Below, in pieces: positions 3,052 through 30,963 of a stretch of 33,242 nt of DNA. Each line of letters begins with the position of its first letter. Positions within the stretch are counted from its first letter, which is position 1. This stretch comes from Terriglobia bacterium. Lineage in GTDB: Bacteria > Acidobacteriota > Terriglobia > Bryobacterales > Bryobacteraceae. The stretch spans positions 1-33,242 of the forward strand of contig JAJPIT010000096.1 in the NCBI GenBank assembly GCA_021324615.1. Reading direction: 5' to 3'. The notes beneath the pieces were generated by a model, which was not told the origin of the DNA, made no database searches, and saw only the letters and a program-made list of their open reading frames with translations. The translations under genes and the position numbers were made by a program.

Positions 3052-3088
3052 TTGCACTCCGGGATTCGGACTCCCTTACTATAGAGGA
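3052..3088 (+). promoter_or_regulatory. Predicted promoter of the M24 peptidase gene, leaderless type
   Basis: TACTAT at 3077-3082 is followed by six bases and then the ATG at 3089, so a normal -10 to +1 distance puts the transcript start on the start codon. TTGCAC at 3052-3057 could be a poor -35 with a 19-bp spacer. The AGAGGA between the box and the ATG resembles a ribosome site but abuts the start too closely to work as one. Confidence 0.45.
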
Positions 3089-4321
3089 ATGCGCAGCCTT
3101 TGGGCGCTGATCCTGGTGCTGGCGCCGCTGCATGCCGGCGGCATCTCCGGCGAGGAGTACCGCTCGCGGCGCGCGGAGTTGCGCAAATCGCTCGACGGCG
3201 TGATGGTCCTGTTCGGCGCCAACGAGCCCGAAGACCTGCACGTCAGCTTTTTCCAGGACCCCAATTTCCTGTACCTCTCCGGCTGGCGCGAGCCGGGCGC
3301 CGTCATGATGCTCACCCGGGAGGAAGAGATCATCTTCCTTCCCGAACGGAATTTCCGGGAGGAAAACTTCACCGGCCGCAAACTCGGCGCGGGCGACCCC
3401 GACGCCCGGGACAAAACCGGATTCGATCGCGTGCTGCCGCGCAGCGCGCTGGAGGCGGAATTTGCGCGCCTCGCCGCGCGGTCGGAAAAAATCTATTCCA
3501 TCCCCGCGGACCCCCGCGCCGGCAGGCTGCTGGCGCTGGCGCCCCTGCATGAGCAGCGGTCCGCCGCGGCGCTGCTCGCCCCGATGCGCATGATCAAGTC
3601 GCCCGCCGAAATCGAGCTGCTCAGCAAGGCCGCCGAAGCCAGCGTCGCCGCGCATCTGGCCGCCTGGAAGCGCATCCGCCCCGGCCTGTACGAATACCAG
3701 ATCGCCGCGGCCATGGTGGACACCTACCAGGAACTGGGCTGCGAGCGCAGCGCCTATGCGCCGATCGTCGGCAGCGGACCCAACAGCACCATCCTTCATT
3801 ACATGGCCAACCGCCGCCGCATGGATTCCGGCGAAGTGCTGCTGATGGACGTCGGCGCGGAATGCTCCGATTACGCCAGCGACGTGACGCGGACGGTTCC
3901 GGTCAACGGCAGGTTCACGGCGCGGCAGCGCGAGATCTATAACATCGTGCTCGGCGCGCAAAACGCCGCCCTCGCCGCGGTCAAGCCCGGCGTCAAAATT
4001 CGCGGGGACCATTCGCTTTACAGCATCGCCTACGATTACATCAACACCCATGGCAAGGATCTGCACGGGGAGCCGCTCGGCAAGTACTTCACGCACGGCC
4101 TGAGCCACCACGTCGGGCTCGACGTCCACGACCTGAGCGATGCGAACGCTCCGCTCAAGGCCGGGATGGTCATCACCATCGAGCCGGGAATTTATATTCC
4201 CGAGGAGTCCATCGGCGTGCGCATCGAAGACACCGTGCTGGTCACCGAAACCGGATCCCGAGTCCTCAGCGGCGCGCTGCCGCGCGATCCGGACGAAATC
4301 GAAAAACTTGTACGCAAGTGA
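3089..4321 (+). CDS. pepP: Exported Xaa-Pro aminopeptidase (M24 family, aminopeptidase P type)
   Basis: Metallopeptidase that removes an N-terminal residue preceding proline. Residues 1-16 form a hydrophobic signal-like segment (MRSLWALILVLAPLHA), suggesting export. An aminopeptidase P N-terminal domain (about 20-165) precedes the pita-bread catalytic domain (about 170-405). Metal ligands seen: Asp254 in LLMDVG, Asp265 in YASDVTR, His340 in HGLSHHVGLDVHD, Glu365 in ITIEPG and Glu380 in RIEDTV. The frame is open back to 2522, but that extension overlaps lspA in another phase; the signal peptide and promoter both place the start at 3089. The stop overlaps the kinase start by four bases (GTGA). 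Confidence 0.93.
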   Translation: MRSLWALILVLAPLHAGGISGEEYRSRRAELRKSLDGVMVLFGANEPEDLHVSFFQDPNFLYLSGWREPGAVMMLTREEEIIFLPERNFREENFTGRKLGAGDPDARDKTGFDRVLPRSALEAEFARLAARSEKIYSIPADPRAGRLLALAPLHEQRSAAALLAPMRMIKSPAEIELLSKAAEASVAAHLAAWKRIRPGLYEYQIAAAMVDTYQELGCERSAYAPIVGSGPNSTILHYMANRRRMDSGEVLLMDVGAECSDYASDVTRTVPVNGRFTARQREIYNIVLGAQNAALAAVKPGVKIRGDHSLYSIAYDYINTHGKDLHGEPLGKYFTHGLSHHVGLDVHDLSDANAPLKAGMVITIEPGIYIPEESIGVRIEDTVLVTETGSRVLSGALPRDPDEIEKLVRK

Positions 4322-6177
4322 GCCGCCGAGCGCAAACCGCCGCCTACGCCGCCGCCGTGGCCGCGTGTTTCGCGGCGGGTATGACCATCGGCTGGCTGCC
4401 TCCGGCCGAGAGCGTCAATCATATTTTTTACGACGCCCTCCTGGCGCGCGAGCCGCGGCAGGACTGGACGCCGCAATCGGCGGTGGTGGCAATCGACGAG
4501 CAGACGCTCGGCCGCCGCGGCGGCATGCGGAACATCCGCTCGATTCTGGCCGACGCCGTCGCGCGGGCCGCCGCGGCGGGGCCGGCCGCGCTGGCCGTGG
4601 ACGTGCTGCTGGCCGACGACAATTTTGACGCCGCCGGAAACCAGGCGCTGGAAGCCTCGCTCCGCCGCGCGCGCCATCTGGTTCTGCCCTGCGATCTCGT
4701 CCGCGTCGATGGAGCGCTGAAGTGGGAGGATCCCCTGCCCCGCTTCGCCTCCGCCGCCGCCGCGCTCGGCCACGTCTACCGCGACGCCGCCGATGACAGC
4801 AACCGCCAGGTGCCGCTGGAGGAGATCGCCGACGGAAAGCGCCGCTGGGCGCTGGCGCTGGAAACCTTCAGCGTGGCGCACGGCGAAACCGCGCCGCTTG
4901 AAAACGGACCCTCGGAGATCGACACCGGAGGCGTCGCAATTCCCGCTCCCCCCTCCGAAACCGGGCGCAAAATGTATGTCCGCTATCTGCCCCCGGTCAT
5001 TCCGGTGGTCTCCGCACTGGAGATCGAAGCGCATCGCTTGTCGCTGCGCGGCAAGGCGGTCTTTATCGGGGTGACGGCGCAAGCCGCCAACGACCAGGCG
5101 CTAATCCCCTTCGGCTACGCCATTCCCGGAGTGTTGCTGCACGCCCAGATTTATGAGACCATCGCGCGCGGCCGCTTTCTCACCGACGCCCGCTACGACG
5201 TGCAGCTTCTGTTTTGCGCCCTGCTGGCCGCCGCCGCAGGGCTGATCTTCGCGCTGCGCTCCGGATGGCCGGCATACGCGCTGGCCGCTCTCGTTCTGGC
5301 GCTCTCGGTCTGGATTCCCGTCGAATTTTTCCATCACGATCTCGTCTTCCCCTTTTTTCAGCCGGTGGCGGTGGCCTGGATTTCGGTGGGCGGAGCGGCC
5401 AGCTTCCAGCATTTCTTCGTGCAGCGGCAGTTGCGCCGCAGCGAATCGGAAAAGTCCCGCTACCAGCAGGCCATCCACTGGGCCGCGCACGAAATGCGCA
5501 CGCCGCTTACCGCCATTCAGGGGTCCAGCGAGATCATGGCCCGCTATCATCTGCCCGAAGCCAAGCGCCAGCAATTGAGCGAAATGATCCACTCCGAATC
5601 CAAGCGCCTGGCGCGGATGATTCAGACCTTCCTCGACGTCGAGCGCCTGGCCGACGGCCAGATGGAGCTGAAACGGGAGCGCTTCTCCATCGCGCAGGTC
5701 ATCGAGACCTGCCTGGCGCGCGCCGCCCCGCTCGCCGAGCGAAAACAGATCCGCCTGAATACGGAGGAGATCGCCGATGCGGCCCTCACCGGCGACCGCG
5801 AATTGATGGAATACGCGCTCTATAATCTGCTCACCAACGCCGTCAAATATTCACCCGCCGGAAGCCAGGTGTGGATCTCGGCCGAGCTTCGCCGGGGCGA
5901 GCTCCGCGTCGCCGTCCGCGATCAGGGCATCGGCATGGACGCCAGGGAACTCAAAAATATCTTTAAAAAATTCTACCGGACCAAGCGCGCCGAAGCCTCC
6001 GGCGAAGCGGGAACCGGCATCGGCCTGTCCATCGTCGACCAGATCGTCGCCCACCACGGCGGGCGCATGGAAGTCCGCAGCGAGCCGGGAAAAGGATCTT
6101 GTTTTACGATGATAGTTGCGGCGCAACCTGCGGCCGCAACGGCGGAAAATGCAGAAGCTTCTCCTGGTCGAGGATGA
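4318..6177 (+). CDS. CHASE2-domain membrane sensor histidine kinase
   Basis: Two-component sensor. Layout: an N-terminal membrane segment (about 8-27), an extracytoplasmic CHASE2 domain (about 33-290, with AVVAIDE, ALAVDVLL and VFIGVTA typical of that fold), three closely spaced membrane helices (about 294-314, 318-338, 342-362), then a HisKA domain with phospho-acceptor His391 in HEMRTPL. The ATPase domain has an N box (NLLTNAVKYSP, about 503-513), G1 (DQGIGMD) and G2 (GTGIGLS). GTG start, translationally coupled to the peptidase by a four-base overlap; its 3' end overlaps the response regulator by 29 bp, so the two almost certainly form a cognate pair. CHASE2 ligands are generally unknown and nothing here names one. 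Confidence 0.93.
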   Translation: MSRRAQTAAYAAAVAACFAAGMTIGWLPPAESVNHIFYDALLAREPRQDWTPQSAVVAIDEQTLGRRGGMRNIRSILADAVARAAAAGPAALAVDVLLADDNFDAAGNQALEASLRRARHLVLPCDLVRVDGALKWEDPLPRFASAAAALGHVYRDAADDSNRQVPLEEIADGKRRWALALETFSVAHGETAPLENGPSEIDTGGVAIPAPPSETGRKMYVRYLPPVIPVVSALEIEAHRLSLRGKAVFIGVTAQAANDQALIPFGYAIPGVLLHAQIYETIARGRFLTDARYDVQLLFCALLAAAAGLIFALRSGWPAYALAALVLALSVWIPVEFFHHDLVFPFFQPVAVAWISVGGAASFQHFFVQRQLRRSESEKSRYQQAIHWAAHEMRTPLTAIQGSSEIMARYHLPEAKRQQLSEMIHSESKRLARMIQTFLDVERLADGQMELKRERFSIAQVIETCLARAAPLAERKQIRLNTEEIADAALTGDRELMEYALYNLLTNAVKYSPAGSQVWISAELRRGELRVAVRDQGIGMDARELKNIFKKFYRTKRAEASGEAGTGIGLSIVDQIVAHHGGRMEVRSEPGKGSCFTMIVAAQPAAATAENAEASPGRG

Positions 6178-7468
6178 TCCATCGGTTCGCAATACCATGG
6201 TGACCTGCCTTGAGCTGGAAGGGTACGACGTGGATGCCGTGGCCTCCACGCGCGAGGCGATCGACCGCCTGCGGTCCGCCGCTTACCCGATCGTCATCTC
6301 CGACATTTACCTGGACGAGCGCACCGGCATCGACGTGCTGCGCACAGCCCGCCAGCAGAATCCCGATTGCGCGGTGATCCTGATGACCGGGCGCGGCAGC
6401 ATGGAGACCGTGATGCAGGCCACCCAGGGCGGCGCTTTCGAATATCTGGCCAAACCGTTTGAAATGGCGCAGATGATCGATACCATCCGGCGCGCCGAAA
6501 AGACCCTCAGCGCCGCGGACCGCGACGACGACGCCGAGCCCATCGACGACCTTCCCGAAACGGAGATGATCGGCAGCTCGCCGCGCATGATCGAAATTTA
6601 CAAAACGCTCTCCAAAGTCGCCCCCACTGACGCCACCGTTCTCATCGAGGGCGAAACCGGGACCGGCAAGGAGCTGATCGCGCGCTTGATTCACCGCAAC
6701 TCCAAACGCGCGGCACAGCCGTTTGTGCCGGTCGATTGCGGCTCGATCGCGCCGTCGCTGCTGGAAAGCGAGCTGTTCGGCACACTCAAGGGCGCCTACA
6801 CGGGGGCCGATCGCGACCGCATGGGAGTGTTCGAGGCCGCCCACAACGGAACCGTTTTTTTGGACGAAATTGGCGATATTGACCTCGGTTTTCAGCTAAA
6901 ATTGCTGCGTTTTTTGCAGGAGCGCGAGATCCGCCCGCTCGGCTCGGCGCGCGCCAAAAAGGTGGATGTGCGGGTGCTGGCGGCGACCAACAAGGACGTC
7001 CAGAAGATGGTCGACGAGGGAAAGTTCCGGGAGGACCTCTGGTACCGCCTCAACGTGGTCCGCATCACCGTGCCGCCGCTTTGCGAGCGCCCCACTGATA
7101 TTCCGCTGCTGGTTCACTATTTCCTGAAGCGTTACAACGAGCGGTACAAGCTGGAAACGCGGTTGAGCGATTCCGGCTTGAAAGCCATGACCGAGTATAG
7201 CTGGCCCGGCAACGTCCGCCAGCTCCAGCATATGATGGAGCGCCTCACCATTCTGGCGCCGGGCGGGCGCATCGACGGCGGCGCGGTGCGCCAGGCCATC
7301 GAGCAGATGGATTCGCGCGACGCCTCCAGCGAAACGCTTGCCGATACCGAAGCGGATCAGATCCGCCGGGTACTGGCGGCCACCAACGGGAACAAGAGCC
7401 GCGCCGCCAAAATCCTCGGCATCGAGCGCAAAACGCTGTATCGCAAGCTGGAGCGAATGGGCCTGTGA
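6149..7468 (+). CDS. NtrC-family response regulator (receiver, AAA+, FIS-type HTH)
   Basis: Sigma-54-type transcriptional activator paired with the upstream kinase. Receiver domain 1-115 has acidic pair Glu8-Asp9-Asp10, phospho-acceptor Asp52, Thr80 and Lys102. The AAA+ domain has Walker A GETGTGKE (168-175), the sigma-54 contact loop as GAYTGA (215-220; the consensus is GAFTGA) and Walker B GTVFLDEIGD. A FIS-like helix-turn-helix ends the protein (NKSRAAKILGIERKTLYRKL). Eleven codons upstream (TTG, 6116) are also open, but the ATG at 6149 opens directly into the first receiver strand (MQKLLLVEDD) and has GGCGGAAA before it. 439 residues, normal for the family. Confidence 0.94.
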   Translation: MQKLLLVEDDPSVRNTMVTCLELEGYDVDAVASTREAIDRLRSAAYPIVISDIYLDERTGIDVLRTARQQNPDCAVILMTGRGSMETVMQATQGGAFEYLAKPFEMAQMIDTIRRAEKTLSAADRDDDAEPIDDLPETEMIGSSPRMIEIYKTLSKVAPTDATVLIEGETGTGKELIARLIHRNSKRAAQPFVPVDCGSIAPSLLESELFGTLKGAYTGADRDRMGVFEAAHNGTVFLDEIGDIDLGFQLKLLRFLQEREIRPLGSARAKKVDVRVLAATNKDVQKMVDEGKFREDLWYRLNVVRITVPPLCERPTDIPLLVHYFLKRYNERYKLETRLSDSGLKAMTEYSWPGNVRQLQHMMERLTILAPGGRIDGGAVRQAIEQMDSRDASSETLADTEADQIRRVLAATNGNKSRAAKILGIERKTLYRKLERMGL

Positions 7469-7477
7469 GGCTCCGCC

Positions 7478-7516
7478 CCCGGTAGTTGGTCTGCCCGGGC
7501 CCCTTTCTTTCTTTTC
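7478..7516 (+). terminator. Weak candidate terminator after the response regulator gene
   Basis: CCCGG (7478-7482) can pair with CCGGG (7495-7499) across a 12-base loop, and a pyrimidine-rich T tract (7504-7516) follows. The stem is only five base pairs, so this is a tentative call; the T tract may equally belong to the promoter just downstream. Confidence 0.25.
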
Positions 7517-7526
7517 CCATCCGGAA

Positions 7527-7532
7527 TATAAT
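7527..7532 (+). promoter_or_regulatory. -10 box (perfect TATAAT) for the small membrane protein gene
   Basis: TATAAT at 7527-7532 lies 42 bp before the ATG at 7575. No good -35 hexamer sits 16-18 bp upstream, where there is a T/C-rich run. Just beside it, CCCCGGTAG occurs twice (7477-7485 and 7533-7541). Unlike the leaderless promoters in this window, this one leaves a leader carrying a strong ribosome-binding site. Confidence 0.5.
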
Positions 7533-7574
7533 CCCCGGTAGCTCGGCTCATGGGAATGGGAAATGGAGGTTTCT

Positions 7575-7724
7575 ATGTTTGACAGCCTCGACGAGCAGAT
7601 CAAAAGAGACGAATCGCGTGTGGTGAGCAGCAAGGAACGCGTGGTTCGTGTGGCGCTTTATGTGATCGCCGCCGCGGTCATCTTCGGCGGCTTGATCGTC
7701 GGCGTTCATCTGGCCGGAAGCTAG
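7575..7724 (+). CDS. Small single-pass membrane protein, 49 residues
   Basis: Function unknown. The reading frame runs from ATG 7575 to TAG 7722-7724 and is preceded by the ribosome-binding site GGAGGT (7565-7570, four bases from the ATG) and a perfect TATAAT further upstream, so it is very likely a real gene. Residues 1-25 are charged and polar (MFDSLDEQIKRDESRVVSSK...), and residues 26-47 form one hydrophobic helix rich in Ala, Val, Ile and Gly that ends in HLAGS. A cytoplasmic N-terminus is likely because the flanking Arg and Lys residues are on that side. It stands alone, convergent with the VWFA gene 16 bp away. It resembles short proteins that I believe recur in acidobacterial genomes, but I cannot name a family. 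Confidence 0.8.
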   Translation: MFDSLDEQIKRDESRVVSSKERVVRVALYVIAAAVIFGGLIVGVHLAGS

Positions 7725-7740
7725 TTTCCGCGGCAGCCGG

Positions 7741-15916: not shown

Positions 15917-15931
15917 TGATACTATGAGCAC
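15917..15931 (+). promoter_or_regulatory. Predicted extended -10 promoter of the MoaDE operon, leaderless type
   Basis: TGA-TACTAT (15917-15925) gives an extended -10, followed by six bases and the GTG start at 15932. No -35 is visible. The spacing matches the other leaderless-type promoters in the window and supports GTG rather than the out-of-frame ATG at 15924 as the start. Confidence 0.5.
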
Positions 15932-20301: not shown

Positions 20302-20319
20302 GGATATCCGCCGTCAACG

Positions 20320-20802
20320 CTACTCGATCACGACCAGCACCTCGCCGGCCTGAACGGTCGCGTCCGCCTTCGCCTTCACTTCCACGACCTTCCCCGCTTT
20401 CGGCGACTTCATCTCATTCTGCATCTTCATCGCTTCGACGACAACCAAACCTTGGCCCGCCTCCACCGTCTCGCCCGCGCTCACCAGCACGCGCACGACT
20501 TTCCCTGGCATCGGGGACGCGATACTCCGCCGCCCTTCTCCGAAGGCGCCCGCGCCGCGCCCGCGCATCTGGCGCGGATCGAAGATCTCCACCGCAAACG
20601 GACGCCCGTTGACGCGAATCGCTCCTTCCACGGAGATCACCGAGTAGCTGCGGCCCTCGATCAGCACGCTATAGGATCCGGGCGCCAGCGCCGCGATCGA
20701 ATATTCGCGCTCCACCGCCTGGCCGTTCCGCTCATAGCGGAGGCGCGCGCCGTTCACTTCGAACTTCGCTGCGCTCCCGTCCACCTTCGCCTCAAGCTTC
20801 AT
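20320..20802 (-). CDS. Biotin carboxyl carrier protein of an acyl-CoA carboxylase
   Basis: Carries biotin between the biotin carboxylase and carboxyltransferase. 160 residues: an N-terminal beta region (1-75), a short Gly/Arg linker, then a biotinyl domain (about 93-160) with the attachment motif EAMKMQNE (Lys126) and the PMPGKV opening. It resembles the C-terminal third of acetyl/propionyl-CoA carboxylase alpha subunits more than AccB. Starts inside the stop of the biotin carboxylase gene (four-base overlap). No carboxyltransferase gene is present in the window. Confidence 0.92.
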   Translation of the reverse strand: MKLEAKVDGSAAKFEVNGARLRYERNGQAVEREYSIAALAPGSYSVLIEGRSYSVISVEGAIRVNGRPFAVEIFDPRQMRGRGAGAFGEGRRSIASPMPGKVVRVLVSAGETVEAGQGLVVVEAMKMQNEMKSPKAGKVVEVKAKADATVQAGEVLVVIE

Positions 20803-22282
20803 CGCATCATCTCCGCGCGGCCGATGGCCAGCCAGGCGCTCGATTTCGCCGGAGCCGGCGCGGGCGTCTTCGCTTCTTTCAACGACGCGATCAGCACCGC
20901 GACCGCTTCTGTCTCCAGATCGGCGGCTTCCGCCGCGGGCGGCTTGAAGCGGTCAAGAAACGCGGTCGACAATTCGCCCGCGCGGAAACATTCGTCGGCT
21001 AAAATCCCGTCAAACCATGCGATATTCGTGCGAATTCCTTCCACTACATACTCGCCGAGCGCCCGCCGCATCCGCTCAATCGCCGCCTCGCGCGAGGGAG
21101 CCCAAACCGCCATCTTCGCCAGCATCGGGTCGTAATCGAGCGGAACCGTCCATCCCTGATACACGCCAGAATCGAGCCGGATACCCGGACCCGACGGCTG
21201 TTCGAGATACGTAATCTTTCCGGGCGACGGCAGATAGTTGTTGGCGGGATCTTCGGCATAGATGCGACACTCGATCGCCGACCCCCTCCATTGCACGTCC
21301 TCCTGCCGGATCGTAAGCGGCTCGCCCGCGGCGATGCGCAGTTGCCAATGCACCAGATCCAGGCTGGTGGCCAGCTCGGTCACCGGATGCTCCACCTGCA
21401 ACCGCGTGTTCATCTCCAGGAAATAGAAGTTGCGGTCGCGGTCCACCAGAAACTCCATCGTCCCGGCGTTGGCGTAACCCGCCGCGCGGGCGATCTTCAG
21501 CGCCGCCGCGCCCATTTTTTCGCGCAGCTCCGGATGGGCCAGCATCACCGGCGACGGGCACTCTTCGATCACTTTCTGATGCCGCCGCTGAATTGAGCAT
21601 TCCCGCTCGCCCAAATGGATCATGTGGCCGTGATGATCGCCCAACACCTGGATCTCGATGTGCCGCGGCTCCAGCACCAGCTTTTCCACGTACACTTCAT
21701 CGTTGCGGAAGGCGCGCAGCGCCTCGCTCCGCGCATCGCGCAGCGCCGATTCCAGATCCGCCTCGCGATCGACGCGGCGCATTCCTTTCCGCCGCCGCCG
21801 GCCGAGGCCTTGAGCAGCACCGGATAGCCGATCTCGCCGGCGATCCGCTTGGCTTCCTCAATTTCGCCGAGCGGCTCCTTTGTTCCCGGCACCACCGGCG
21901 CGCCCGCCGCGATCGCCACCTGCCGCGCCGCCGTTTTCGATCCCATCCTCCGGATCGCCGACGGCGGCGGCCCGATAAAGACGATGCCGGCGGCGGCGCA
22001 CGCTTCAGCAAACTCGGCGTTTTCGCTCAGAAACCCGTAGCCGGGATGAATCGCCTCAGCGCCATGCCGTTTTGCGGCATCGATGATCTTATCGATGCGC
22101 AGATAGCTCTCCGAGGATGGCGCCGGGCCCAGATGGGCCGCTTCATCGGCCATCCGCACCGCCAGCGAGGCGCGGTCGGCGTCGGAGTAAACGGCGACGC
22201 TCGAAATTCCAAACTCGCGCAGCGCGCGGATGATTCGCACCGCGATCTCGCCGCGATTAGCCACCAGAACTTTACGAAACAT
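20799..22282 (-). CDS. Biotin carboxylase of an acyl-CoA carboxylase, interrupted by a frameshift
   Basis: ATP-grasp enzyme that carboxylates biotin with bicarbonate. The N-terminal part (22282 to 21785, residues 1-166, [17 protein letters not shown] to ASAGGGGK) and the C-terminal part (21782 to 20799, 327 residues from MRRVDREAD) lie in different frames. The break falls between the Gly-rich GGGGK and MRR, where the family has GGGG(K/R)GMR; restoring one base gives an unbroken protein of about 494 residues. Intact downstream motifs include [10 protein letters not shown] and [14 protein letters not shown]. At 494 residues plus a 160-residue carrier, the pair looks like a propionyl/methylcrotonyl-type alpha subunit cut in two. 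The missing base may be a sequence error or a real lesion. Confidence 0.9.
21783..21787 (-). other. Frameshift site in the biotin carboxylase gene (one base missing)
   Basis: On the minus strand the codon AAG (Lys166) is followed by GAATG. The family sequence requires Lys-Gly-Met, that is AAG-GGA-ATG, so one base, most likely a G of a short G run, is absent. Both flanking frames are well conserved right up to this point. Confidence 0.85.
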
Positions 22283-22300
22283 GAAGGATCGATTTTAGCA
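22283..22300 (-). promoter_or_regulatory. Predicted extended -10 promoter of the biotin carboxylase operon
   Basis: On the minus strand TGC-TAAAAT (22300 to 22292) is an extended -10; nine bases separate it from the ATG at 22282, so the leader would be about three bases at most. No -35 and no ribosome site are apparent. Confidence 0.45.
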
Positions 22301-22335
22301 GGGAACGCGAAAGGGATCCGGCGGGCGCCGTCGGT

Positions 22336-22611: not shown

Positions 22612-22731
22612 AGCGGCCGGATCTAAAGTACTAATGCGCTTCTCTCGATTGTATACCTTAGAGCCCGCGCCCAGGTGGCGGCAAGACCTTAGTCTTTCTT
22701 CACTTAGGACGGTTAGCTCGCGAGAGGTTAC

Positions 22732-22745
22732 TGGTAGAATCGGGC
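22732..22745 (+). promoter_or_regulatory. Predicted extended -10 promoter of the zinc-ribbon/LamG gene, leaderless type
   Basis: TGG-TAGAAT (22732-22740) and five bases lead to TTG at 22746. This supports the TTG start; the in-frame ATG at 22767 would have a leader of about 20 bases without a ribosome site. No good -35. The rest of the gap 22612-22731 shows no gene; ACCTTAG occurs in it twice. Confidence 0.5.
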
Positions 22746-23747
22746 TTGAAGTTCCAGGTACCAGGCATGCTGTGCTTCTTATGCGGTAAAAAGATCGGCC
22801 TGCTGCGAACGCTGGTGGACCAGCAATACTGCTGCGCCGAACACCGCAGGGAAGCCCGGCTTGCGTCGGCGCAGGCGCTCCGCGAGGAAGAAGAAATCGA
22901 GCTTTGGACCGTCTCCAAATCGAGGCAGAAAGCGGCGGTTCGCTACGGCGGTTCGGCCGGGCAGACGGCGTCCCTGGCGGCGTTCCTGACCGTGGGCGCT
23001 CTGCTGATCGCGGCGGTCATGCTGCCGGGACCGGGCGGCGGAGGCGGCAGCGGCAGCTCGCCGCGCGCCAGCCTCGATCCGGCGCTTGAGCGCGGGTGGT
23101 TCCAGCGCGTCGGCGACGGCATCGGCGAGATGGTTCGCTCGCGCGCGCCGGTGACCCTGCATCAGGATTTCACGCGCGGCTGGCAGGGGTGGACCACCGC
23201 GGCGCTGCACCGGGTCGACGATCCGCGGCGCGCCGAGGATCCGCGCCTGGTCTCGGCGGCGGCGCCTGTGCTGCGGATCTGGAGCCGGTCCACCGCCATG
23301 CAGAATTATCAGATGGAGTTCAGCGCCGCCATCGAGAAGCGCAGCCTGAGCTGGGCCTTCCGCGCCGCCGACGGCAAAAATTATTACGCCACCAAGCTGA
23401 TGATCTCCAAGCCCGGTCCGCTGCCCAACGCGGGGCTGGTCCGCTATGTGATGATGGACGGCCGCGAGTGGGACCGCGTGGCGCTGCCGCTGCCGCTGAC
23501 GCTGGCGCGCGGGGAGACGTACCGCGTCCGCGTCACCGTGCAGGACGACCGCTTCGTCACCTATCTGAACGGCCAGGTGATCAGCTCCTGGAGCGATAAG
23601 CGGCTCCGCCGCGGCGGCATCGGCTTCTTCGACGATGTCGACGATCCGCAGAAGATCGCCTGGGTCAATCTGTCCGAACGCGACAGCCTGATCGGCCGGA
23701 TGCTGGCGCACTTCTCTCTGTTCGTCCTGCCCGATCCACTTCCCTAG
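22746..23747 (+). CDS. Zinc-ribbon, single-pass membrane protein with LamG-like C-terminal domain
   Basis: Function unknown. 333 residues in three parts. Residues 1-40 carry a Cys/His cluster (CFLC at 10-13, CCAEH at 29-33), a likely treble-clef or zinc ribbon. Residues about 76-93 form one hydrophobic helix, followed by a Gly/Ser linker. Residues about 130-325 look like a concanavalin-type fold related to DUF1080/LamG: LHQDFTRGWQGW, NYQMEFSAAIEKRSLSWAFRA, YRVRVTVQDDRFVTYLNGQVI and RRGGIGFFDD are the expected strand pattern. The zinc part would be cytoplasmic and the sugar-binding-like part outside. TTG at 22746 preferred; ATG 22767 is the alternative and keeps the Cys cluster. Confidence 0.8.
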   Translation: MKFQVPGMLCFLCGKKIGLLRTLVDQQYCCAEHRREARLASAQALREEEEIELWTVSKSRQKAAVRYGGSAGQTASLAAFLTVGALLIAAVMLPGPGGGGGSGSSPRASLDPALERGWFQRVGDGIGEMVRSRAPVTLHQDFTRGWQGWTTAALHRVDDPRRAEDPRLVSAAAPVLRIWSRSTAMQNYQMEFSAAIEKRSLSWAFRAADGKNYYATKLMISKPGPLPNAGLVRYVMMDGREWDRVALPLPLTLARGETYRVRVTVQDDRFVTYLNGQVISSWSDKRLRRGGIGFFDDVDDPQKIAWVNLSERDSLIGRMLAHFSLFVLPDPLP

Positions 23748-23790
23748 CTAGTATGCATCCGCGCCCGCCACGTCATCCACGTTGTCGGGT

Positions 23791-24753
23791 CTATCGAATA
23801 GGGAGAGGTACTGGGGAGCCGGTGCAAACAATCCTAGTTCCACCACCGCCTAGTGAAATGCAGCCTGCGCCGGCATTCGCAACGAATGTGGCGCCCATTC
23901 CGCCGCAGGGCGTGCCTGATATGGTTGCGCAGGTGGACCTCTGGAGCTGGATGGTCACATTGCCGGAAGGCATCGAGGAGAGCACTACGAAATTCAATTG
24001 ATAAACGCCGACAGTTCCTGGCGTCAGCCCTAGCCACAAAAGATTGGAAGGCTGGCATGGAGAGTTCGCAACCGGGCAGCCGTTGGCGACCACGGTTCCA
24101 TTAAGCAGGAGAGCGAACTGGTCTACCTGCGTAATCGTGTTGATCTGAGGTACGATCGCCAGCGGTGAAAACGGCGAGGCTTGGCCTGTTGGAACGAGCG
24201 GCTGCGTGCCCGGCAAACCTGTAAGATAACCAATCAGAATCTCACCGGCATGCGCTGGATTCTGATCGGAAACGAGGGAATAATCCGACGCGTGTTGGAA
24301 CGCAGCCAGATTGGCGCCGATCCAAAAAAAGTCACCCGGAGATTGCAGGCTTGCCACGGCCGTAGTTAGTTGGACCGCATTCTGGGTCACAGTTACCGTC
24401 CACGATCCGTCCGAGTTGGGGATAGCCCCCTGGGGAACCTCGAAATTGATCTGCTGATATCCTCCGTCGTCGGCGACCGCCAGGATCGGCGCGGCTGCTC
24501 CGCCAATCGTAATCGAAATCCCGCCTAGCGTGAAGGGCAATGGCATCGTCGTAGCGTAAATCACTCCCTGGACTTGTAGCCCGGTACAAAAAGCTACGCC
24601 AAGCGAACCCTTTGAGGGCAGAACCCTCTGAAAGCTCGCGGCTGAAGTCACAACGATGTTCTGCGTCGATTGGGCGCAGCAGATCACTCCAACTCCGAGG
24701 GCAACCAAGCATCGGACGCATGATATCGGGTGGACAACACTTCTGAATTTCAT
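23791..24753 (-). CDS. Secreted protein with TIGR03437-like Solibacter domain
   Basis: 320 residues. Signal segment at 8-28 (ISCVRCLVALGVGVICCAQ) followed at once by a domain with the TIGR03437 pattern: VTSAASFQ, GSLGVAFCTGLQVQ, LPFTLGGISITIGGAAAPI, YQQINFEVPQG and WTVTVTQN, then a second half with similar strands. In this family the domain normally sits at the C-terminus of large exported proteins; here it is N-terminal and the protein is short. Six Cys residues in the last 120 residues could form disulfides. ATG with GAGGGTG nine bases upstream. Its GC content looks clearly lower than its neighbours. Function unknown. Confidence 0.8.
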   Translation of the reverse strand: MKFRSVVHPISCVRCLVALGVGVICCAQSTQNIVVTSAASFQRVLPSKGSLGVAFCTGLQVQGVIYATTMPLPFTLGGISITIGGAAAPILAVADDGGYQQINFEVPQGAIPNSDGSWTVTVTQNAVQLTTAVASLQSPGDFFWIGANLAAFQHASDYSLVSDQNPAHAGEILIGYLTGLPGTQPLVPTGQASPFSPLAIVPQINTITQVDQFALLLNGTVVANGCPVANSPCQPSNLLWLGLTPGTVGVYQLNFVVLSSMPSGNVTIQLQRSTCATISGTPCGGMGATFVANAGAGCISLGGGGTRIVCTGSPVPLPIR

Positions 24754-24771
24754 TTTGCGTCACCCTCATTC

Positions 24772-24791
24772 TTATGTACCGATTATGTACC
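24772..24791 (-). repeat. Tandem 11-bp direct repeat upstream of the TIGR03437-like gene
   Basis: TTATGTACC occurs at 24772-24780 and again at 24783-24791 (GGTACATAA twice on the coding strand of the gene), 19 to 38 bp before its ATG. One helical turn separates the copies, so this could be a protein-binding site; each copy also contains a TACATA that could act as a -10. The remaining gap to 24936 shows no gene. Confidence 0.55.
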
Positions 24792-24936
24792 AGATTTCCT
24801 GCTTCCCCGCGACCTTCAGCGCAATGATCGTTGACGTTCGCGCGGAGCGGTCAGCCATTTAGGCAACCACACCGGCGGCGGGGTCTGAGCCATGGCTGCA
24901 TTGACCGTCGCGCGGTACCCGCTGGCTAGCCTGCGC

Positions 24937-26136
24937 TCACAACCCCAGCCGTCTATCCAGATCCGCGGCGATCGGCGCCAGCCGGTCCGGATTGCGCAAG
25001 AGGTTGGCGATTCCAAACTGCGCGTAATTTTCGTAGAACATCTCGACGGCTTCAAGCGATTCCGCATAGGCCAGACGCGCGTGCGCCGTATCCAGACGCG
25101 ACCAGTCCTGCCCCAGATTCTCAAGCCGCGGCAGCTTTCCGCGCCGCGCCTCCGCCGCAATTTGCGCGCGCGCGGCCGCGCTCGTCGAATCGCCGGAAAG
25201 CTTCTGCGCCAGACCTTCGTGAAACCACGCCGGCCATCGTCCGAGCACCGCCAGGCAGGCGTGCACCGTCTCGTGCGTGAAGACGCGGCGCACGGACTCA
25301 TCCAGCCGCCCGCTGACCGGCACGCGAATTCTTCCATCGAACTGGCCGGCGTTCCACTCCGCGACATCCACAGTCTTGCGGTAAGCCTCCGGGCTCTGCA
25401 CGATGGCGACGATGCGCTCTTCGGCCGCGCAGCCCAGCTCGGCCGATACGCGCAGGAATGCCTGATCGAGCGCCGCCAGCATCAGCCGCGCGGTTTCGGC
25501 GGGCACCGCCGCGGGGTCGTAGCGCAGCGCCACGCGCATGCCGACCAGCCGCTCCGTGCTCTGATCGCCGGCCGTCTCGCGCAGCACGCGCCGGTAGGCC
25601 TGTTCGAGGCTGGCGTCGGGCTTCAACTCGAGCGACGTTTTCCAGTAATCGAGCGCCAGCCGGGCCTGATCGGCGCGCCAGGCAGCCAATCCCGCCAGCG
25701 CAAACAGATTGGGATCCCGGCTGCGCTCCAGCTCCGGCCGCAAGAGCTCCAGCGCCTTCGAAGGCCGGCTGGATTCGATCAGCCGCGCGGCCTCCCTTGC
25801 CGGTGCAGACTTCGGCGCGATCGCCGGTATCGCGCTCGTCATTTCGTTGACGCCCGCCGCGCTCTGGTCCACGATCGCCGCCTCGCGACGCTGCTGATCG
25901 AACTGATCGAGCCCGTCAATTTCGCTCGCCGGCAAATATCCTTCAACGATTCGGCCGTTCTGCTCCACCGCGACTTTGTAGCAGGGCGTTTCGCTGCCGG
26001 AAAGAGCAAAACGAATCGTCACCGGCGCGCCGGCGGAAAGCGTCGCCACCGTCCCGGCGCCCTCATCGCAGCCGCTGCGCAGCGCGGTGTGGTCGCTTTT
26101 GACCGCGATCGCCAGAAACATTACCAGCAGCGTCAC
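24937..26136 (-). CDS. Exported peptidase-MA-like zinc metallopeptidase with TPR-like region
   Basis: 399 residues. A hydrophobic N-terminal segment (MTLLVMFLAIAV) suggests export or anchoring. Residues about 25-75 look like an SH3-type domain with two Cys; 110-190 form helical TPR-like repeats (ALELLRPELERSRDPN, ARLALDYWKTSLELKPDA). The catalytic part carries HETVH (288-292) and WFHEGLA with Glu307 as third zinc ligand, the gluzincin pattern of the MA-like family. The substrate is unknown. The GTG start at 26136 has a -10 box six bases before it and no ribosome site, fitting a leaderless start. Divergent from the beta-propeller gene. Confidence 0.88.
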   Translation of the reverse strand: MTLLVMFLAIAVKSDHTALRSGCDEGAGTVATLSAGAPVTIRFALSGSETPCYKVAVEQNGRIVEGYLPASEIDGLDQFDQQRREAAIVDQSAAGVNEMTSAIPAIAPKSAPAREAARLIESSRPSKALELLRPELERSRDPNLFALAGLAAWRADQARLALDYWKTSLELKPDASLEQAYRRVLRETAGDQSTERLVGMRVALRYDPAAVPAETARLMLAALDQAFLRVSAELGCAAEERIVAIVQSPEAYRKTVDVAEWNAGQFDGRIRVPVSGRLDESVRRVFTHETVHACLAVLGRWPAWFHEGLAQKLSGDSTSAAARAQIAAEARRGKLPRLENLGQDWSRLDTAHARLAYAESLEAVEMFYENYAQFGIANLLRNPDRLAPIAADLDRRLGL

Positions 26137-26148
26137 GTTTAAAGAATA
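26137..26148 (-). promoter_or_regulatory. Predicted -10 of the peptidase-MA-like gene, leaderless type
   Basis: On the minus strand TATTCT (26148 to 26143) is followed by six bases and the GTG at 26136. There is no -35 and no extended TGN. Confidence 0.45.
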
Positions 26149-26211
26149 AAGGGAAAGCGCCGAGGAGTCCGTCGGCGAAACCCCTTAGATCCGGCCCATT
26201 CTAAGGCTGCA

Positions 26212-26226
26212 TGCTACCATCGGTTT
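26212..26226 (+). promoter_or_regulatory. Predicted extended -10 promoter of the beta-propeller gene, leaderless type
   Basis: TGC-TACCAT (26212-26220), six bases, then ATG at 26227. No ribosome site or -35 seen. Confidence 0.5.
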
Positions 26227-27339
26227 ATGACCAGCCGCGGCCTCGCGGCGCTTTCCCGGCGCGGTTTTCTGGCCCTGGCTTCCGGCGCGTGTTTCGCCGC
26301 CGATACCGGCGGTAAAGGAAGAATTTTTCCTTCGTTCCTCCAGCGCTTCCCCGACCCCGCGACCGAATTTCCCATCCTGCGCCTCACCGATCCGGACCAC
26401 ACCAGCTTTCTTCCGCCCTCCTATGCCCGGTCGGTTGCACGGCGCGGAAATTTCCTGGCATACGCCTCCGATATGACCGGCAAGTTCCAGGCGTTTCGTC
26501 TCGACCTCCGAACCGGCCAGTCGCGCCAGCTCACCGCCAGCGAGGATTTCCATCCGCGCAACTTCACCTTGTTCGGCGACGACCGTTACCTCGCCTATTG
26601 CGACGGCCCGCGCCTGATCGCGGCCAACCTCGCCGCCCTACGAACGCGCGAAATCTATCGCATGCCCGGCGATTCCGAGCCCGGCTTCGGGCTTGCCGTG
26701 GCCGAAGACGCGCAGTTCGCCGCCCTGATCGAAAAGCGCGGATCGGCGCATTGCCTGCGCCTGGTCCATCTGGCCGATGGATCGGCGGCCAAGCTCGCCG
26801 AAGCCGATGAAGAGCTGCGCGATCCGGTTCCCCGGCCGCACCGGGCCGCAGTTCTCTATCGCCGCGCCGGATCGGTATGGCTGGCCAACTACGACGCCCG
26901 GCAGAATTACCGCCTGAGACTCGCCGGCGGTGCGATCGGTCCGGCCACTTGGAGCGCCGATGGCCGCACCGTGCTGTACCTGAACTATCCGGCCGATCCG
27001 CGCAGGCTGCACGCCATCCGCGAGTTCACCCCGGATACCAACGAAGATCGGCTGGTCGCCGAAACCTCGCAGTTCGTCGCGTTTTCGGCAAACGCCGACG
27101 GCAGCGTGTTCGTCGGCGCCAGCGGAAGCAAAGCCTCGCCTTACGTCTTGCTGCTGGTCCGCGCCGTGCGCCGCGAGCTGACCCTGGCCGAGCATCGCGC
27201 CAGCGACCCCGCCATGGTATCGCCGGTCTTTTCCGCCAACAGCCAGCATATTTATTTCGTCACCGACCGCGGCGGCAAGCCGGCGATCTACACCATGTCC
27301 GTCGCCAAGTTCGTCGAGGAGACCGCCAGCGCGAATTGA
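26227..27339 (+). CDS. Tat-exported TolB/PL22-like beta-propeller protein
   Basis: 370 residues. The N-terminus has a twin-arginine motif, SRRGFLAL (10-17), before a hydrophobic stretch ending ACFA, so export by Tat is likely. The rest is a repeated strand pattern of a beta-propeller, with YASDMTGKFQAFRLDLRTGQSRQLT, WSADGRTVLYLNY and FSANSQHIYFVTDRGG as blades in the TolB/WD40 style. The opening blades (ILRLTDPDHTSFLPP..., then the TG-QLT blade) resemble oligogalacturonate lyase (PL22) propellers, but I cannot confirm the catalytic residues, so no enzyme is claimed. Confidence 0.82.
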   Translation: MTSRGLAALSRRGFLALASGACFAADTGGKGRIFPSFLQRFPDPATEFPILRLTDPDHTSFLPPSYARSVARRGNFLAYASDMTGKFQAFRLDLRTGQSRQLTASEDFHPRNFTLFGDDRYLAYCDGPRLIAANLAALRTREIYRMPGDSEPGFGLAVAEDAQFAALIEKRGSAHCLRLVHLADGSAAKLAEADEELRDPVPRPHRAAVLYRRAGSVWLANYDARQNYRLRLAGGAIGPATWSADGRTVLYLNYPADPRRLHAIREFTPDTNEDRLVAETSQFVAFSANADGSVFVGASGSKASPYVLLLVRAVRRELTLAEHRASDPAMVSPVFSANSQHIYFVTDRGGKPAIYTMSVAKFVEETASAN

Positions 27340-27399
27340 ACCCCGGTGCGGCCGCCGGCTTAAGGCCTTCGCCGGATTGCGCCCGCTTCCGATCCCGCC

Positions 27400-27411
27400 T
27401 AGCCTGAAAAT
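27400..27411 (+). promoter_or_regulatory. Predicted -10 of the Thr-rich repeat protein gene, leaderless type
   Basis: TAGCCT (27400-27405), the six-base spacer GAAAAT, then GTG at 27412. The same CTGAAAA stretch follows the boxes at 28369 and 29797. Confidence 0.4.
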
Positions 27412-28332
27412 GTGAAGTACTATTCGCTTCTCGCCGTTTGCGCCGCCGCGCTGGGGCAATCGACCGCCACCACCTTCACCAGCGGGGAGACACCCATCAC
27501 CACGGTTTCCACCGACCACACCCAAACCGTGCTCACGCGATCCATCAACGGCGGGGAAATTCCCCTGGAAACCACGGAAACCCGCCTGCTCAGCAAATCC
27601 GAAGACGGATCGGTCACCGAAGTCATCGTGCGGCGCTATGATCGCAACGGGCAGCTCGCCTCGACCGAGCGAACCGTCACCGAAGTGCGCAATCGCCCGG
27701 GAGGTTCGACCAGCAAATCGATTACCTACGCCACCGACATCAACGGCGTGCTGCGTGAAACCGAGCGCAAGACCATCGATACCGAACAGCAGGGCGGCGC
27801 CGCACGCACCGAAACCGTCATCGAGCGCCCGGCGATCGATGGCGGCTTTCAGGCCGTGGAGAAACGCTCGGCGGTGATTGAAAACCGGCCGGACTCGACG
27901 CACCAGGACGAAACCGTCTATCGCCGCAGCGGTAATGGCGGCTTCAACGTGGCGCTGCGCAAGATCGCCGACACCACGCGCAAAGGCAACACCACCACCG
28001 AAACCACCGATCTCTACGAGCCCATCGGCGAGGCGGACCGTCTCCAGCTCTCCCGCCAGCAGGTGGCCACCACCGTCGCCGAGCCCGACGGATCGGAAAC
28101 CCGCCAGATCGATTATTATCTTCCCGCGCTGCCCGGCGCCGCCCGCACCACCGGCGAATCGCAAAAACTTTGGGAGCAGGATACCATCCAGCGGAAGAAA
28201 CAGGCCGACGGCGGTTTCGTGGAAACGGTCACCGCGCGCCGCGCCGACCCCAATCATCCCAATCAGCTCGGCCCCGCGCAGCAGGTCTCTGAAACCGTCT
28301 GCCGCGGCAACTGCTCTTCGCCAGCGCAATAG
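27412..28332 (+). CDS. Secreted Thr/Glu-rich repeat protein, function unknown
   Basis: 306 residues after a short signal segment (MKYYSLLAVCAAALG). The remainder is hydrophilic, rich in Thr, Glu, Arg and Asp, and built from imperfect repeats of about 35-45 residues with the pattern T-E-T-V-x-x-R, then D/N-G-G-F, then an alternating strand: for example TETVIERPAIDGGFQAVEK, DETVYRRSGNGGFNVALRK and QRKKQADGGFVETVTARR. Alternating hydrophobic spacing suggests beta-strands in a stalk or solenoid. Two Cys close the C-terminus (CRGNC). GTG start with a leaderless-type promoter. I recognise no family. Confidence 0.8.
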   Translation: MKYYSLLAVCAAALGQSTATTFTSGETPITTVSTDHTQTVLTRSINGGEIPLETTETRLLSKSEDGSVTEVIVRRYDRNGQLASTERTVTEVRNRPGGSTSKSITYATDINGVLRETERKTIDTEQQGGAARTETVIERPAIDGGFQAVEKRSAVIENRPDSTHQDETVYRRSGNGGFNVALRKIADTTRKGNTTTETTDLYEPIGEADRLQLSRQQVATTVAEPDGSETRQIDYYLPALPGAARTTGESQKLWEQDTIQRKKQADGGFVETVTARRADPNHPNQLGPAQQVSETVCRGNCSSPAQ

Positions 28333-28368
28333 CCGCAGCCCGGATTGATCGGCCGGGACCGCAGGATG

Positions 28369-28379
28369 TACACTGAAAA
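28369..28379 (+). promoter_or_regulatory. Predicted -10 near comF, leaderless type
   Basis: TACACT (28369-28374), spacer GAAAA, then GTG at 28380. That GTG frame stops after nine codons (TAG at 28407), whereas the comF frame is a different one; see the comF entry. Confidence 0.4.
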
Positions 28380-28410
28380 GTGAAGACGGAGGTGGGTCTT
28401 CTCGAGTAGA

Positions 28411-29241
28411 CTGCTGCCCCGTACGGGCAGTTCGCTGTTTTCACCCGCCGGCGCATCGAGCGCCGTTAAGAGGGCGTTTTGCGGTCTGTTCGGGCTGGTC
28501 TTTCCCGATGATTGCCGCGTCTGCGGCGAGCCCCTCAAGGAAGTTTCCCGTATCCCCGTCTGCAAGCGCTGCCTCAGCCAGGCCGCGCCGCTTGCCGCCG
28601 AATATTTCTGCGCCTGCTGCCGCGCGCCATTTCTGAACCGCTTTCCGCTCGATGAATCCGGGCGATGCGCGCTGTGCCGCCTCGGATTGAACGGTTTCGA
28701 CGCGGTCTACTCCTACGGTTTCTATGAAGGTTCGTTGCGCAAGCTGATCCATTTATTCAAATACGGGGGCGTCACTCCGTTGAGCCGCGTCTTCGGAGAG
28801 TTTCTGGCCACCGCGCTGCCGCGCGAGCTGCGCTTTGATCTGATCGTCCCCATGCCGCTGCATTGGCTGCGCCGCTGGAGGCGCGGCTACAATCAGTCGG
28901 CGCTGCTGGCCCGCGAGGTTTCCCGCCGCTGGAATGTCCCGGCCGCGGGTGTGTTGCGCCGCCGCCGCGCCACCGCGCCACAGGCCGGATTATCCAACGC
29001 GCAGCGCCGCAAAAATGTCACCGGCGCGTTCGCCGCCAAAAAGCGTCTGGATGGAATGCATGTCCTGCTGGTTGACGACGTGCTCACCACCGGAGCTTCC
29101 GCCTCCGCCTGCGCCCGGGCCCTGAAGCGGGCCGGCGCGCGCCGCGTCACCGTGCTCACCCTGGCCAGAACGGATCGTCGTACAAACGTTTTTTACGCGG
29201 CCGGCTTGGCCCCCGCCGCGGCCGGGAGTCTTTCCCTATGA
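28411..29241 (+). CDS. comF: ComF family phosphoribosyltransferase-like protein, start unresolved
   Basis: ComF/GntX protein, linked to DNA uptake or processing in transformable bacteria. The open frame runs from 28384, just after TGA at 28381. It encodes an N-terminal zinc ribbon with four CxxC pairs (CRVC, CKRC, CACC, CALC) and a phosphoribosyltransferase domain with the PRPP motif [13 protein letters not shown]. The only standard start codon in frame is TTG 28687, which lies after the whole ribbon and would discard it. CTG codons at 28411 and 28414 are possible; I use the first, as a placeholder. A frameshift from GTG 28380 is the other explanation. A hairpin (CTGCCC 28414-28419 with GGGCAG 28425-28430) sits at this point. 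The stop overlaps the HNH gene as ATGA. Confidence 0.82.
28414..28430 (+). other. Inverted repeat at the 5' end of comF
   Basis: CTGCCC (28414-28419) and GGGCAG (28425-28430) are perfect complements with a five-base loop. No T tract follows, so it is not a standard terminator. It lies inside the part of comF whose start is unresolved. Confidence 0.4.
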
Positions 29242-29768
29242 TCGCCCCGCAGGAGCGTTTGCAACGGCCCGTGCTGGTGCTCAATTCAAGCTATGAACCG
29301 ATCAACGTGTGCGCCGCGCGGCGCGCCCTGGTGCTGGTGCTGAAGGGCGTCGCCGCCGCCGAGGAACACGCCAGCGCCCACGTCCATTCCGCCCGCCAGA
29401 CGATGCGCGTCCCCAGCGTCATCCGCCTGCTTGAATACCGCCGCATCCCGCATCAGACGCGGGCGCTGTCGCGAAAAAACATTTTGATGCGCGACCGTTA
29501 CACCTGCCAGTATTGCCAGCGTACCCTGAATTCCAGCGAGCTGACGCTCGATCACGTGATCCCGCGCTCGCGCTCCGGCGAGACCACCTGGGAAAACCTG
29601 GTCGCCTGCTGCCATCCCTGCAATAACCGCAAGGGCAATCGAACGCCCGAAGAAGCCGGCATGCGCCTGGCGCGCGCCCCGCGTCCCTTCAGCCTGCACA
29701 CCAGCCGTCATCTGATGCGGTTGCTCGGCAAGAGCGACGATCAGTGGCGAAAATACCTCTTTTATTGA
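29238..29768 (+). CDS. HNH endonuclease
   Basis: 176 residues, cytoplasmic. After an N-terminal domain ([24 protein letters not shown]) it has a zinc-stabilised HNH fold: CQYC (90-93), [13 protein letters not shown] with catalytic His106, the Asn in [10 protein letters not shown], and [10 protein letters not shown]. The protein matches the common bacterial NSSYEPI-type HNH proteins, whose biological role is not settled. It starts inside the comF stop codon (ATGA), so the two are translationally coupled; a shared role in DNA processing is an inference. Confidence 0.93.
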
Positions 29769-29793
29769 CCGCCGCGCCCGCTCCGCGCTTCGA

Positions 29794-29808
29794 TGCTACT
29801 CTGAAAAA
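29794..29808 (+). promoter_or_regulatory. Predicted extended -10 promoter of the YeiH-like gene, leaderless type
   Basis: TGC-TACTCT (29794-29802), the six-base spacer GAAAAA, then TTG at 29809. TTGACC at 29765-29770 is too far away to be a -35. Confidence 0.5.
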
Positions 29809-30963
29809 TTGGCGCCCGCCCTGCACAAACTCAGCCCCGAAGCTCTGCTCTCTCTCGGATCGATGGAAGGCGTCTACGAGCTTCCCGTCGTCGAAACCCA
29901 AACCGCTCGAAAACCCGAACAGAGGCTTCCGCTGTGGCGCGGATGGGCCGCCGCTGCCGCCGTTGCCGTGCTGGCGCTCGCCATTCACTATCTTCCCTTC
30001 GAGCCTTTCCGCGTCGCGGGACCTTCCGGCGTGCGCCGCCCCATCAGCCCGGCCATTGTGGCCATCTTCGCGGGCGCGATCGCCGGCAATCTGCTGCCTC
30101 TCGGCAAAGCTGTGCTCGCCGGCGCGAGACAAACTGCGCGCCGCGTCATCCCCGCCACCATTGTGCTCACCGGAGCGACGCTCAGCCTGAGTCACGCCGC
30201 TTCCGTCGTAATTCGCGCGTTCGCCATCGTCGTCGCAACGATGAGCATCGCCATGCTCTCGGCTCTCGCCATCGGACGGCTGCTCGGCGTCTGGACCCGC
30301 ACCAATGTTCTGATCGGAGCGGGCACCGCCATCTGCGGCAATAGCGCCATCGTCGCCGTCGCGCCGCTGATCGAAGCCGAGGATCGCGACGTGATGCTGT
30401 CGATGGGCGCCATCAACCTGCTCGGGTTGGCTCTCATGTTCGCCAGTCCCGCCATCGGCGGCCTGCTCGGAATGAGCGATCAGGGCTACGGCGTCTGGGC
30501 CGGATCGACGCTGCACGCCGTGCCGCAGGCCATCGCCGCCGGATTCGCCTTCAGCGAAAAGGCTGGAGGGCTGGCTACCCTGGTGAAACTGGTCCGGGTC
30601 GCGCTGCTTGCCCCGCTGCTGCTGGTTCTGGCCTTCGGCTATGCCCGCACCCGCAAGGCCGGCGTGACCGTGCACTATGGGCGGCTGGTGCCGCCGTTCT
30701 TGTGGGGATTTTTCGCGTTATTTCTTCTCAATTCCCTGGGCTGGCTGCCCATGCTGCGCTTCGCCTCCGGATGGTCCGTCAATCTCGCCGATGTTCTGGC
30801 CGAAGCCGGAAATCTTTTGCTCACGTTAGCCATGGCCGCCATGGGCCTGGAAGTCAATGTGAAGCATCTACTGAAAGTCGGCGGATCGGCGCTGGCCGTC
30901 GGCGCGGCTTCCTCGGCCGCCGCCTGCGCCGCAAGCTGGGCGCTCATCCGCTGGCTGCTTTGA
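29809..30963 (+). CDS. YeiH/UPF0324-family integral membrane protein (putative anion exporter)
   Basis: 384 residues with ten or eleven hydrophobic helices after a soluble N-terminal stretch of about 45 residues. Typical family segments: ISPAIVAIFAGAIAGN, IPATIVLTGATLSLS, IGAGTAICGNSAIVAVAPLI, STLHAVPQAIAAGF and LAMAAMGLEVNVKHL. Some members have been linked to sulfite/sulfate export; transport is not shown here. The TTG start at 29809 fits the upstream -10 box. Convergent with tyrA, 37 bp away. Confidence 0.9.
   Translation: MAPALHKLSPEALLSLGSMEGVYELPVVETQTARKPEQRLPLWRGWAAAAAVAVLALAIHYLPFEPFRVAGPSGVRRPISPAIVAIFAGAIAGNLLPLGKAVLAGARQTARRVIPATIVLTGATLSLSHAASVVIRAFAIVVATMSIAMLSALAIGRLLGVWTRTNVLIGAGTAICGNSAIVAVAPLIEAEDRDVMLSMGAINLLGLALMFASPAIGGLLGMSDQGYGVWAGSTLHAVPQAIAAGFAFSEKAGGLATLVKLVRVALLAPLLLVLAFGYARTRKAGVTVHYGRLVPPFLWGFFALFLLNSLGWLPMLRFASGWSVNLADVLAEAGNLLLTLAMAAMGLEVNVKHLLKVGGSALAVGAASSAAACAASWALIRWLL

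Follow-up and report, generated by a model that had tools for sequence, protein, structure and literature searches.

Putative leaderless promoters with TANNNT boxes next to start codons in a Bryobacteraceae genome, and their conservation in relatives

Do genes with a TANNNT hexamer a few bases in front of the start codon have promoters that place transcription at that codon itself, so that their mRNAs carry no leader? The question is raised by a stretch of 33,242 nucleotides from a Terriglobia bacterium of the family Bryobacteraceae (assembly GCA_021324615.1, contig JAJPIT010000096.1; the whole stretch is hereafter the window), in which an original prediction, made from the sequence alone, had listed nine such boxes. 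We found the coordinates and spacings of these boxes to be correct at all nine sites. The direct evidence on their nature consists of position, enrichment, operon bias, the lack of Shine-Dalgarno motifs and conservation, and on this evidence the boxes are very probably sigma-70-type promoters for leaderless mRNAs. Genes are referred to below by the first base of their start codons.

TANNNT boxes in the window and in the genome

Six of the boxes end 6 nt before a start codon. On the forward strand, TACTAT at 3077..3082 precedes ATG 3089 of an Xaa-Pro aminopeptidase (aminopeptidase P, M24), and a second TACTAT at 15920..15925, with TGA in front, precedes GTG 15932 of a MoaD-MoaE fusion (moaDE). 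TACCAT at 26215..26220 and TACTCT at 29797..29802, both with TGC in front, precede ATG 26227 of a PD40 propeller protein and TTG 29809 of a YeiH-type membrane protein, respectively. TAGCCT at 27400..27405 precedes GTG 27412 of a 306-aa protein and, on the reverse strand, TATTCT at 26143..26148 precedes GTG 26136 of a 399-aa protein; neither protein has a Pfam match, and the N-terminus of the 306-aa protein resembles a signal peptide by eye. Two further forward-strand boxes, TAGAAT at 22735..22740 and TACACT at 28369..28374, end 5 nt before TTG 22746 (no Pfam match) and GTG 28380, and the reverse-strand box TAAAAT at 22292..22297 ends 9 nt before ATG 22282 of a biotin carboxylase. A TGN triplet precedes five boxes (those of 15932, 22282, 22746, 26227 and 29809), and the four genes named for comparison (7575, 13463, 18664 and 24753) do carry a Shine-Dalgarno-like sequence, as judged by eye.

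Gene starts were taken from a simple custom caller, which was trained on coding hexamers and is blind to upstream sequence. It picked the same start at six of the nine sites (3089, 15932, 26136, 26227, 27412 and 29809), and the remaining three proposed starts did not fare as well. At 22746 and 22282 the claim is weaker than had been stated: the caller preferred ATG 22767 over TTG 22746, and the true start may be this ATG, with a leader of about 20 nt, while no gene start was called at 22282, where the open reading frame covers only the N-half of the biotin carboxylase, its frame being broken downstream, and where the mRNA probably has a leader of a few nt. Nor was a start called at GTG 28380, which had been listed as a gene start and is not an ordinary one, given that its frame reads VKTEVGLLE and stops after nine codons, with comF in another frame. 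The box at 28369..28374 is likely the promoter of comF.

The source genome comprises 3.94 Mb in 127 contigs, the window being contig 71, and our genome sample consists of the window and 40 other stretches, together 802,443 bases or about one fifth of the genome. Of its 659 genes 649 were scored, the other 10 being left out for an open end or incomplete upstream sequence. TANNNT starts at 0.29% of window positions, and it stands at exactly -12 in 6 of the 28 scored window genes (P = 7e-7, uncorrected for the post hoc choice of this distance). A count of TANNNT relative to gene starts, as the original prediction had proposed, gave a peak at -11 to -15 in the sample: the first T of the box falls there in 107 of the 649 genes, against a mean of 27.9 (22-41) in seven 5-nt wide control bins from -20 on, an excess that amounts to 12.2% of genes. 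No such peak was seen in front of 1873 randomly chosen internal in-frame start codons. The window is richer in these boxes than the remainder of the sample (a -12 box in 4 of 11 operon-first genes, as defined below, versus 18 of 351 elsewhere), and at -20 to -29 of operon-first genes outside it TANNNT starts with a frequency of about 1.1%. A secondary peak at -34 (19 of 649 genes) includes some cases that look like mis-called starts on reading the sequences.

We classed genes as operon-first if they had an opposite-strand neighbour or a gap above 60, and as operon-internal if the gap was at most 15, intermediate gaps being placed in neither group. Boxes at -11 to -15 are concentrated in the former (74 of 362 versus 8 of 171; Fisher 6e-7), and these 74 operon-first genes are termed the core. 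A Shine-Dalgarno 5-mer was found in none of the 74 core genes, in 24 of the 288 other operon-first genes and in 23 of the 171 operon-internal genes, and a 4-mer in 8, 58 and 64 of them, respectively; these motifs are commoner in operon-internal genes and still a minority there. TTG start codons are scarcer in the core than in the other operon-first genes (2/74 versus 44/288; p = 0.003), as would follow if transcription began with a purine at the first base of the start codon. The core boxes are biased towards TA-N-A-(A/C)-T and A is enriched just after them. Upstream of them, TTG gives 12 hits in the four offsets from 21 to 24 nt and 12 in the other 22 offsets. On these counts the leaderless layout would be used by about every eighth gene of the genome, mainly by the first genes of transcription units.

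Conservation of the boxes among relatives

The genome of a relative, G010, is collinear with the window, being 88.3% identical over 1-23736 and 88.2% over 24927-30996. The T, A and T of the box are kept in it at all nine sites (27/27 positions), and the middle bases of the boxes (26/27) and the spacers (51/55) are likewise nearly unchanged, next to 330/431 identical positions in the upstream flanks. Three of the promoters were followed through homologues, the counts for which include the own genome.

The promoter of 27412 was read in 25 homologues, 18 of them from a first homologue set and seven new ones from a second alignment query, which gave 17 loci (nine were the same records and one, partial, was left out) from Bryobacteraceae, Bryobacterales, Candidatus Sulfopaludibacter and Terriglobia metagenome-assembled genomes (MAGs). 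These taxa, together with a match of one window protein to the NCBIfam model acidobact_VWFA, give good support for a placement in Acidobacteriota. Even though the genus homologues share only 31-84% protein identity, 20 of the 25 keep the layout of TTG, spacer, TANNNT and start; in a further two the start could not be placed. In the 20 box-keeping homologues the spacer from TTG to box measures 17 bp in 19 and 18 bp in one, and the distance from the box to GTG or ATG is 6 nt in 17, 5 nt in two and 4 nt in one, so that the start codon alternates between GTG and ATG at a nearly constant distance from the box. In the window the conserved TTG, a putative -35 element, lies at 27377..27379 (+), 17 bp from the -10. 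A further conserved element of this promoter region is TAAGGNNTTCNCC at 27361..27373 (+), whose fixed bases recur in 16 to 20 of these 20 homologues. As a candidate regulon motif TAAGGNNTTCNCC was rejected: together with ATTG it has two exact copies in the own genome (one in the window, the other in C30 and seemingly inside a coding frame) and two with one mismatch, and a looser form that also has a box at the right distance turned up at two places in the 802 kb, both of them within the window. Out of 31 genomes 8, the own one among them, have a single copy of the 27412 pattern and the other 23 have none; the pattern hence looks gene-specific.

For 26136 we read 17 near full-length homologues out of 24 rows, excluding seven partial or distant ones, and 15 of the 17 keep a TANNNT 5-7 nt before the start. 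The upstream element TAAGGGGTTTCGCC at 26174..26187 (-), which begins 39 nt upstream of the -10, resembles that of 27412. Among the 15 homologues an AAGG-type element stands 39 nt before the box in six and 40 nt in one, the rest having variants, and GG and TT occupy the same columns in 14 or 15 of the 15. An element like TAAGGNNTT(C)NCC, starting 39 nt upstream of the -10, is found in the promoters of both 26136 (-) and 27412 (+), and it is conserved or varied in both homologue families; it may be a site for a shared regulator.

The moaDE gene was read in 18 genus homologues, with one fragmentary sequence excluded, and in 11 more from two other families. A TANNNT lies 6-9 nt before the conserved GTG in 16 of the 18 and 12 nt before it in the other two, TGN being seen in front of the box, and the N-terminus V/M-R-I-R-V-L-F-F-G, with close variants, is conserved directly after the box. 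One of the 11 homologues from other families has a box before an earlier TTG. The pattern of moaDE implies a layout that is stable within the genus and changes between families. In six moaDE homologues (L148, L150, L153, L154, L158 and L160) the -10 box shares bases with an in-frame ATG, which automatic annotation may wrongly prefer over the downstream GTG. The three families together indicate that the putative leaderless promoters of this Bryobacteraceae lineage have remained stable over deep protein divergence. In view of this stability, seen in one fifth of a genome and three orthologue families, the annotation of start codons in such uncultured lineages should make use of TANNNT.

Leaderless promoters, alternative readings and known systems

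In sigma-70 geometry, a hexamer that ends six bases before a purine start codon puts +1 on the start codon. In the mechanism that we propose, the housekeeping RNA polymerase would bind TANNNT as its -10 box, joined in at least one family by a TTG -35 element 17-18 bp upstream. With about six nt between box and start codon, transcription would begin at the A or G of ATG or GTG, or a few bases away from it at most. Such an mRNA could not accommodate a Shine-Dalgarno sequence, and ribosomes would, by analogy with other phyla, start directly at the 5' AUG or GUG. Good support for the earlier claim that the -10 sets transcription at the start codon comes from the genome-wide peak in position, the concentration in operon-first genes, the lack of Shine-Dalgarno motifs and the three genus-conserved promoters, one of which has a TTG -35 at 17-18 bp; the claim is an inference all the same, as are the sigma factor and the mode of ribosome loading. 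In Mycobacterium tuberculosis a leaderless transcriptome with TANNNT promoters and many leaderless mRNAs has reportedly been mapped by 5'-end sequencing.

The boxes could instead be ordinary -10 elements of leadered promoters, the true starts lying further downstream behind short leaders. Such an arrangement would suit the preference of the blind caller for ATG 22767, 21 nt downstream of 22746, the leader of a few nt that 22282 would have, and the rarity of TTG starts among core genes, yet the peak at -11 to -15 without a single Shine-Dalgarno 5-mer in 74 genes, the exchange of GTG and ATG at a nearly constant distance in the 27412 homologues and the conservation of the moaDE N-terminus right after the box all speak against it, and we consider it improbable. 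Still less likely is it that the box is an A/T-rich translation-initiation signal, marking an unstructured start region, and no promoter at all. The enrichment of A just after the core boxes would fit such a signal, but not the narrow position relative to the start, the concentration in operon-first genes (74/362 versus 8/171) or the TTG that the 20 box-keeping 27412 homologues have at a spacer of 17-18 bp; these last two features favor a promoter over a translation signal. TANNNT has only three fixed bases, and some genes in a 33-kb window could bear it near the start by accident; that chance accounts for the boxes is nevertheless hardly credible in the face of six window genes out of 28 with the box at one exact position, the genome-wide excess and the conservation in relatives.

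Several points weigh against the reading as leaderless promoters, or at least limit its reach. The gene starts on which the counts rest are those of an uncurated annotation, and one narrow literature search found no 5'-end data for Acidobacteria. Three 27412 homologues (L072, L073 and L076) and two of 26136 (L093 and L098) are without a box at the expected distance, the consensus of the 26136 homologues has no TTG at the -35 place, and none of the 11 moaDE homologues from the two other families has a box at the conserved start. Counted per box, TTG 22-24 nt upstream is found at 9/74 core and 13/164 control boxes, so that a general -35 is not established. The extended TGN, present at five window sites, is not clearly enriched genome-wide (17/74 core versus 25/147 control) and was not adopted as a general rule; the CTGAAAA spacer, shared in the window as had been noted, was rejected as a motif of the genome, GAAAA following 1/74 core and 0/147 control boxes and GAA 8/74 and 8/147. 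Across the phylum the leaderless signal is patchy, and weak or absent in many acidobacterial families. We compared TANNNT N6 ATG with TANNNT N18 ATG in the same frame in 149 genomes at least 90% complete, in a coarse screen that takes ATG at one distance only, gene start or otherwise, and whose N18 control is imperfect in that leadered promoters may add to its counts. Under these terms z exceeds 3 in 50 of the 149 genomes and is below -3 in four; the ratio is above 2 in five families, stands at 1.75 in f24 (13 genomes) and at 1.06 in f4 (16 genomes), and drops below 1 in some others, the own genome having 1.36. Going by this screen, the extent of leaderless use appears to vary widely from one acidobacterial family to another, a variation that lends itself to study as an evolutionary switch.

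The layout, though real and kept by relatives, belongs to a kind already known and leaves the known mechanism unchanged. The statement that no systematic account was known for Acidobacteria is outdated: according to the parts of the paper available to us, Zheng et al. 2011 (BMC Genomics 12:361; PMC3160421) counted leaderless genes in 3/3 Acidobacteria genomes, with a mean of 13.3% (range 9.7-19.4), as compared with the 12.2% excess here. Their TA-led genes, with TANNNT about 12 bp upstream of the start and mixed with Shine-Dalgarno genes, are like those described above, in which the box lies at -11 to -15, exceeds the controls and goes with no Shine-Dalgarno 5-mer in the core. Where those parts cover three Acidobacteria genomes, with comparisons between closely related genomes mentioned in the abstract, our analysis screened 149 coarsely and followed three promoters through one genus. 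Similarity also extends to Deinococcus-Thermus as described in the accessible text of Zhong et al. 2025 (PMC12340547), with TANNNT 6-7 bp before the open reading frame and adjacent -10-motif promoters; the commonest form there, TACACT, is that of the box at 28369. That work reports by experiment that the box acts as a -10 and that an added -35 raises transcription. It gives nearly one third of genes for D. radiodurans, as against about one eighth here, and it scans the whole bacterial domain, with the string "Acidobacter" absent from its main text. An anti-Shine-Dalgarno survey (PMC10783764) mentions Acidobacteria, with no leaderless counts in the passages seen.

The start of comF and minor observations

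The conserved start of comF is the most novel by-product of the analysis. At 28388..28409 (+) lies a 22-nt element, GGAGGTGGGTCTTCTCGAGTAG, which contains an out-of-frame GTG. We read 21 of 29 rows of comF homologues (17 from the genus and four more distant), excluding eight weak or partial ones. All 17 genus homologues have a TACACT, TAAACT, TACAAT or TAGAAT box followed by GGAGGTGGGTCTTCTCGAGTAG or a near variant, the element taking the form GGAGGTG-N-GTCTTCTCGAGTAG with small variations, and the other four have more diverged forms. At one fixed place, in a frame other than that of comF, all 21 carry GTG (20) or TTG (one), and this frame stops a few codons later in 19. The comF gene is in the +1 frame. 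Between the element and the CxxC motif this frame is free of stops in all 21 and lacks ATG, GTG and TTG in nine, while an in-frame TGA immediately precedes the element in six. The own genome and G010 have no ordinary start codon in the comF frame.

Downstream of the element, differences by codon position in four pairs are 0-4-8, 1-0-1, 4-5-9 and 10-12-16, and two of the four pairs therefore lean to third positions. From these features we tentatively suggest that comF of this genus starts in an unusual way, be it by a programmed +1 frameshift, with a leader peptide or at a non-standard start codon, all of which would suit the data. For the frameshift, the order of a Shine-Dalgarno-like stretch, 3 nt and CUU in the element presumably resembles that of prfB. 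A comF leader forming an RNA hairpin was not convincing in the window sequence (z = -1.53; 19/200 shuffles as good). Among the 149 genomes the element is exact in one, the own, which is the sole member of its family drawn, and five others have it with 3 mismatches; a reversed control also gives matches.

Some minor features remain. The approximately 75 nt upstream of ATG 22767 (22690-22766, +) are almost identical in G010, other intergenic stretches diverging more; as a candidate for a known RNA this block was discarded, since it gave neither a tRNA nor an Rfam match at the gathering threshold. In comparison with G010, a one-base indel splits the biotin carboxylase at 20799-22282 (-); it is either a real mutation or an assembly error. 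A public record titled as a Bordetella parapertussis MAG (L069) matches a genome of the same genus as the window (G014), and its name looks wrong.

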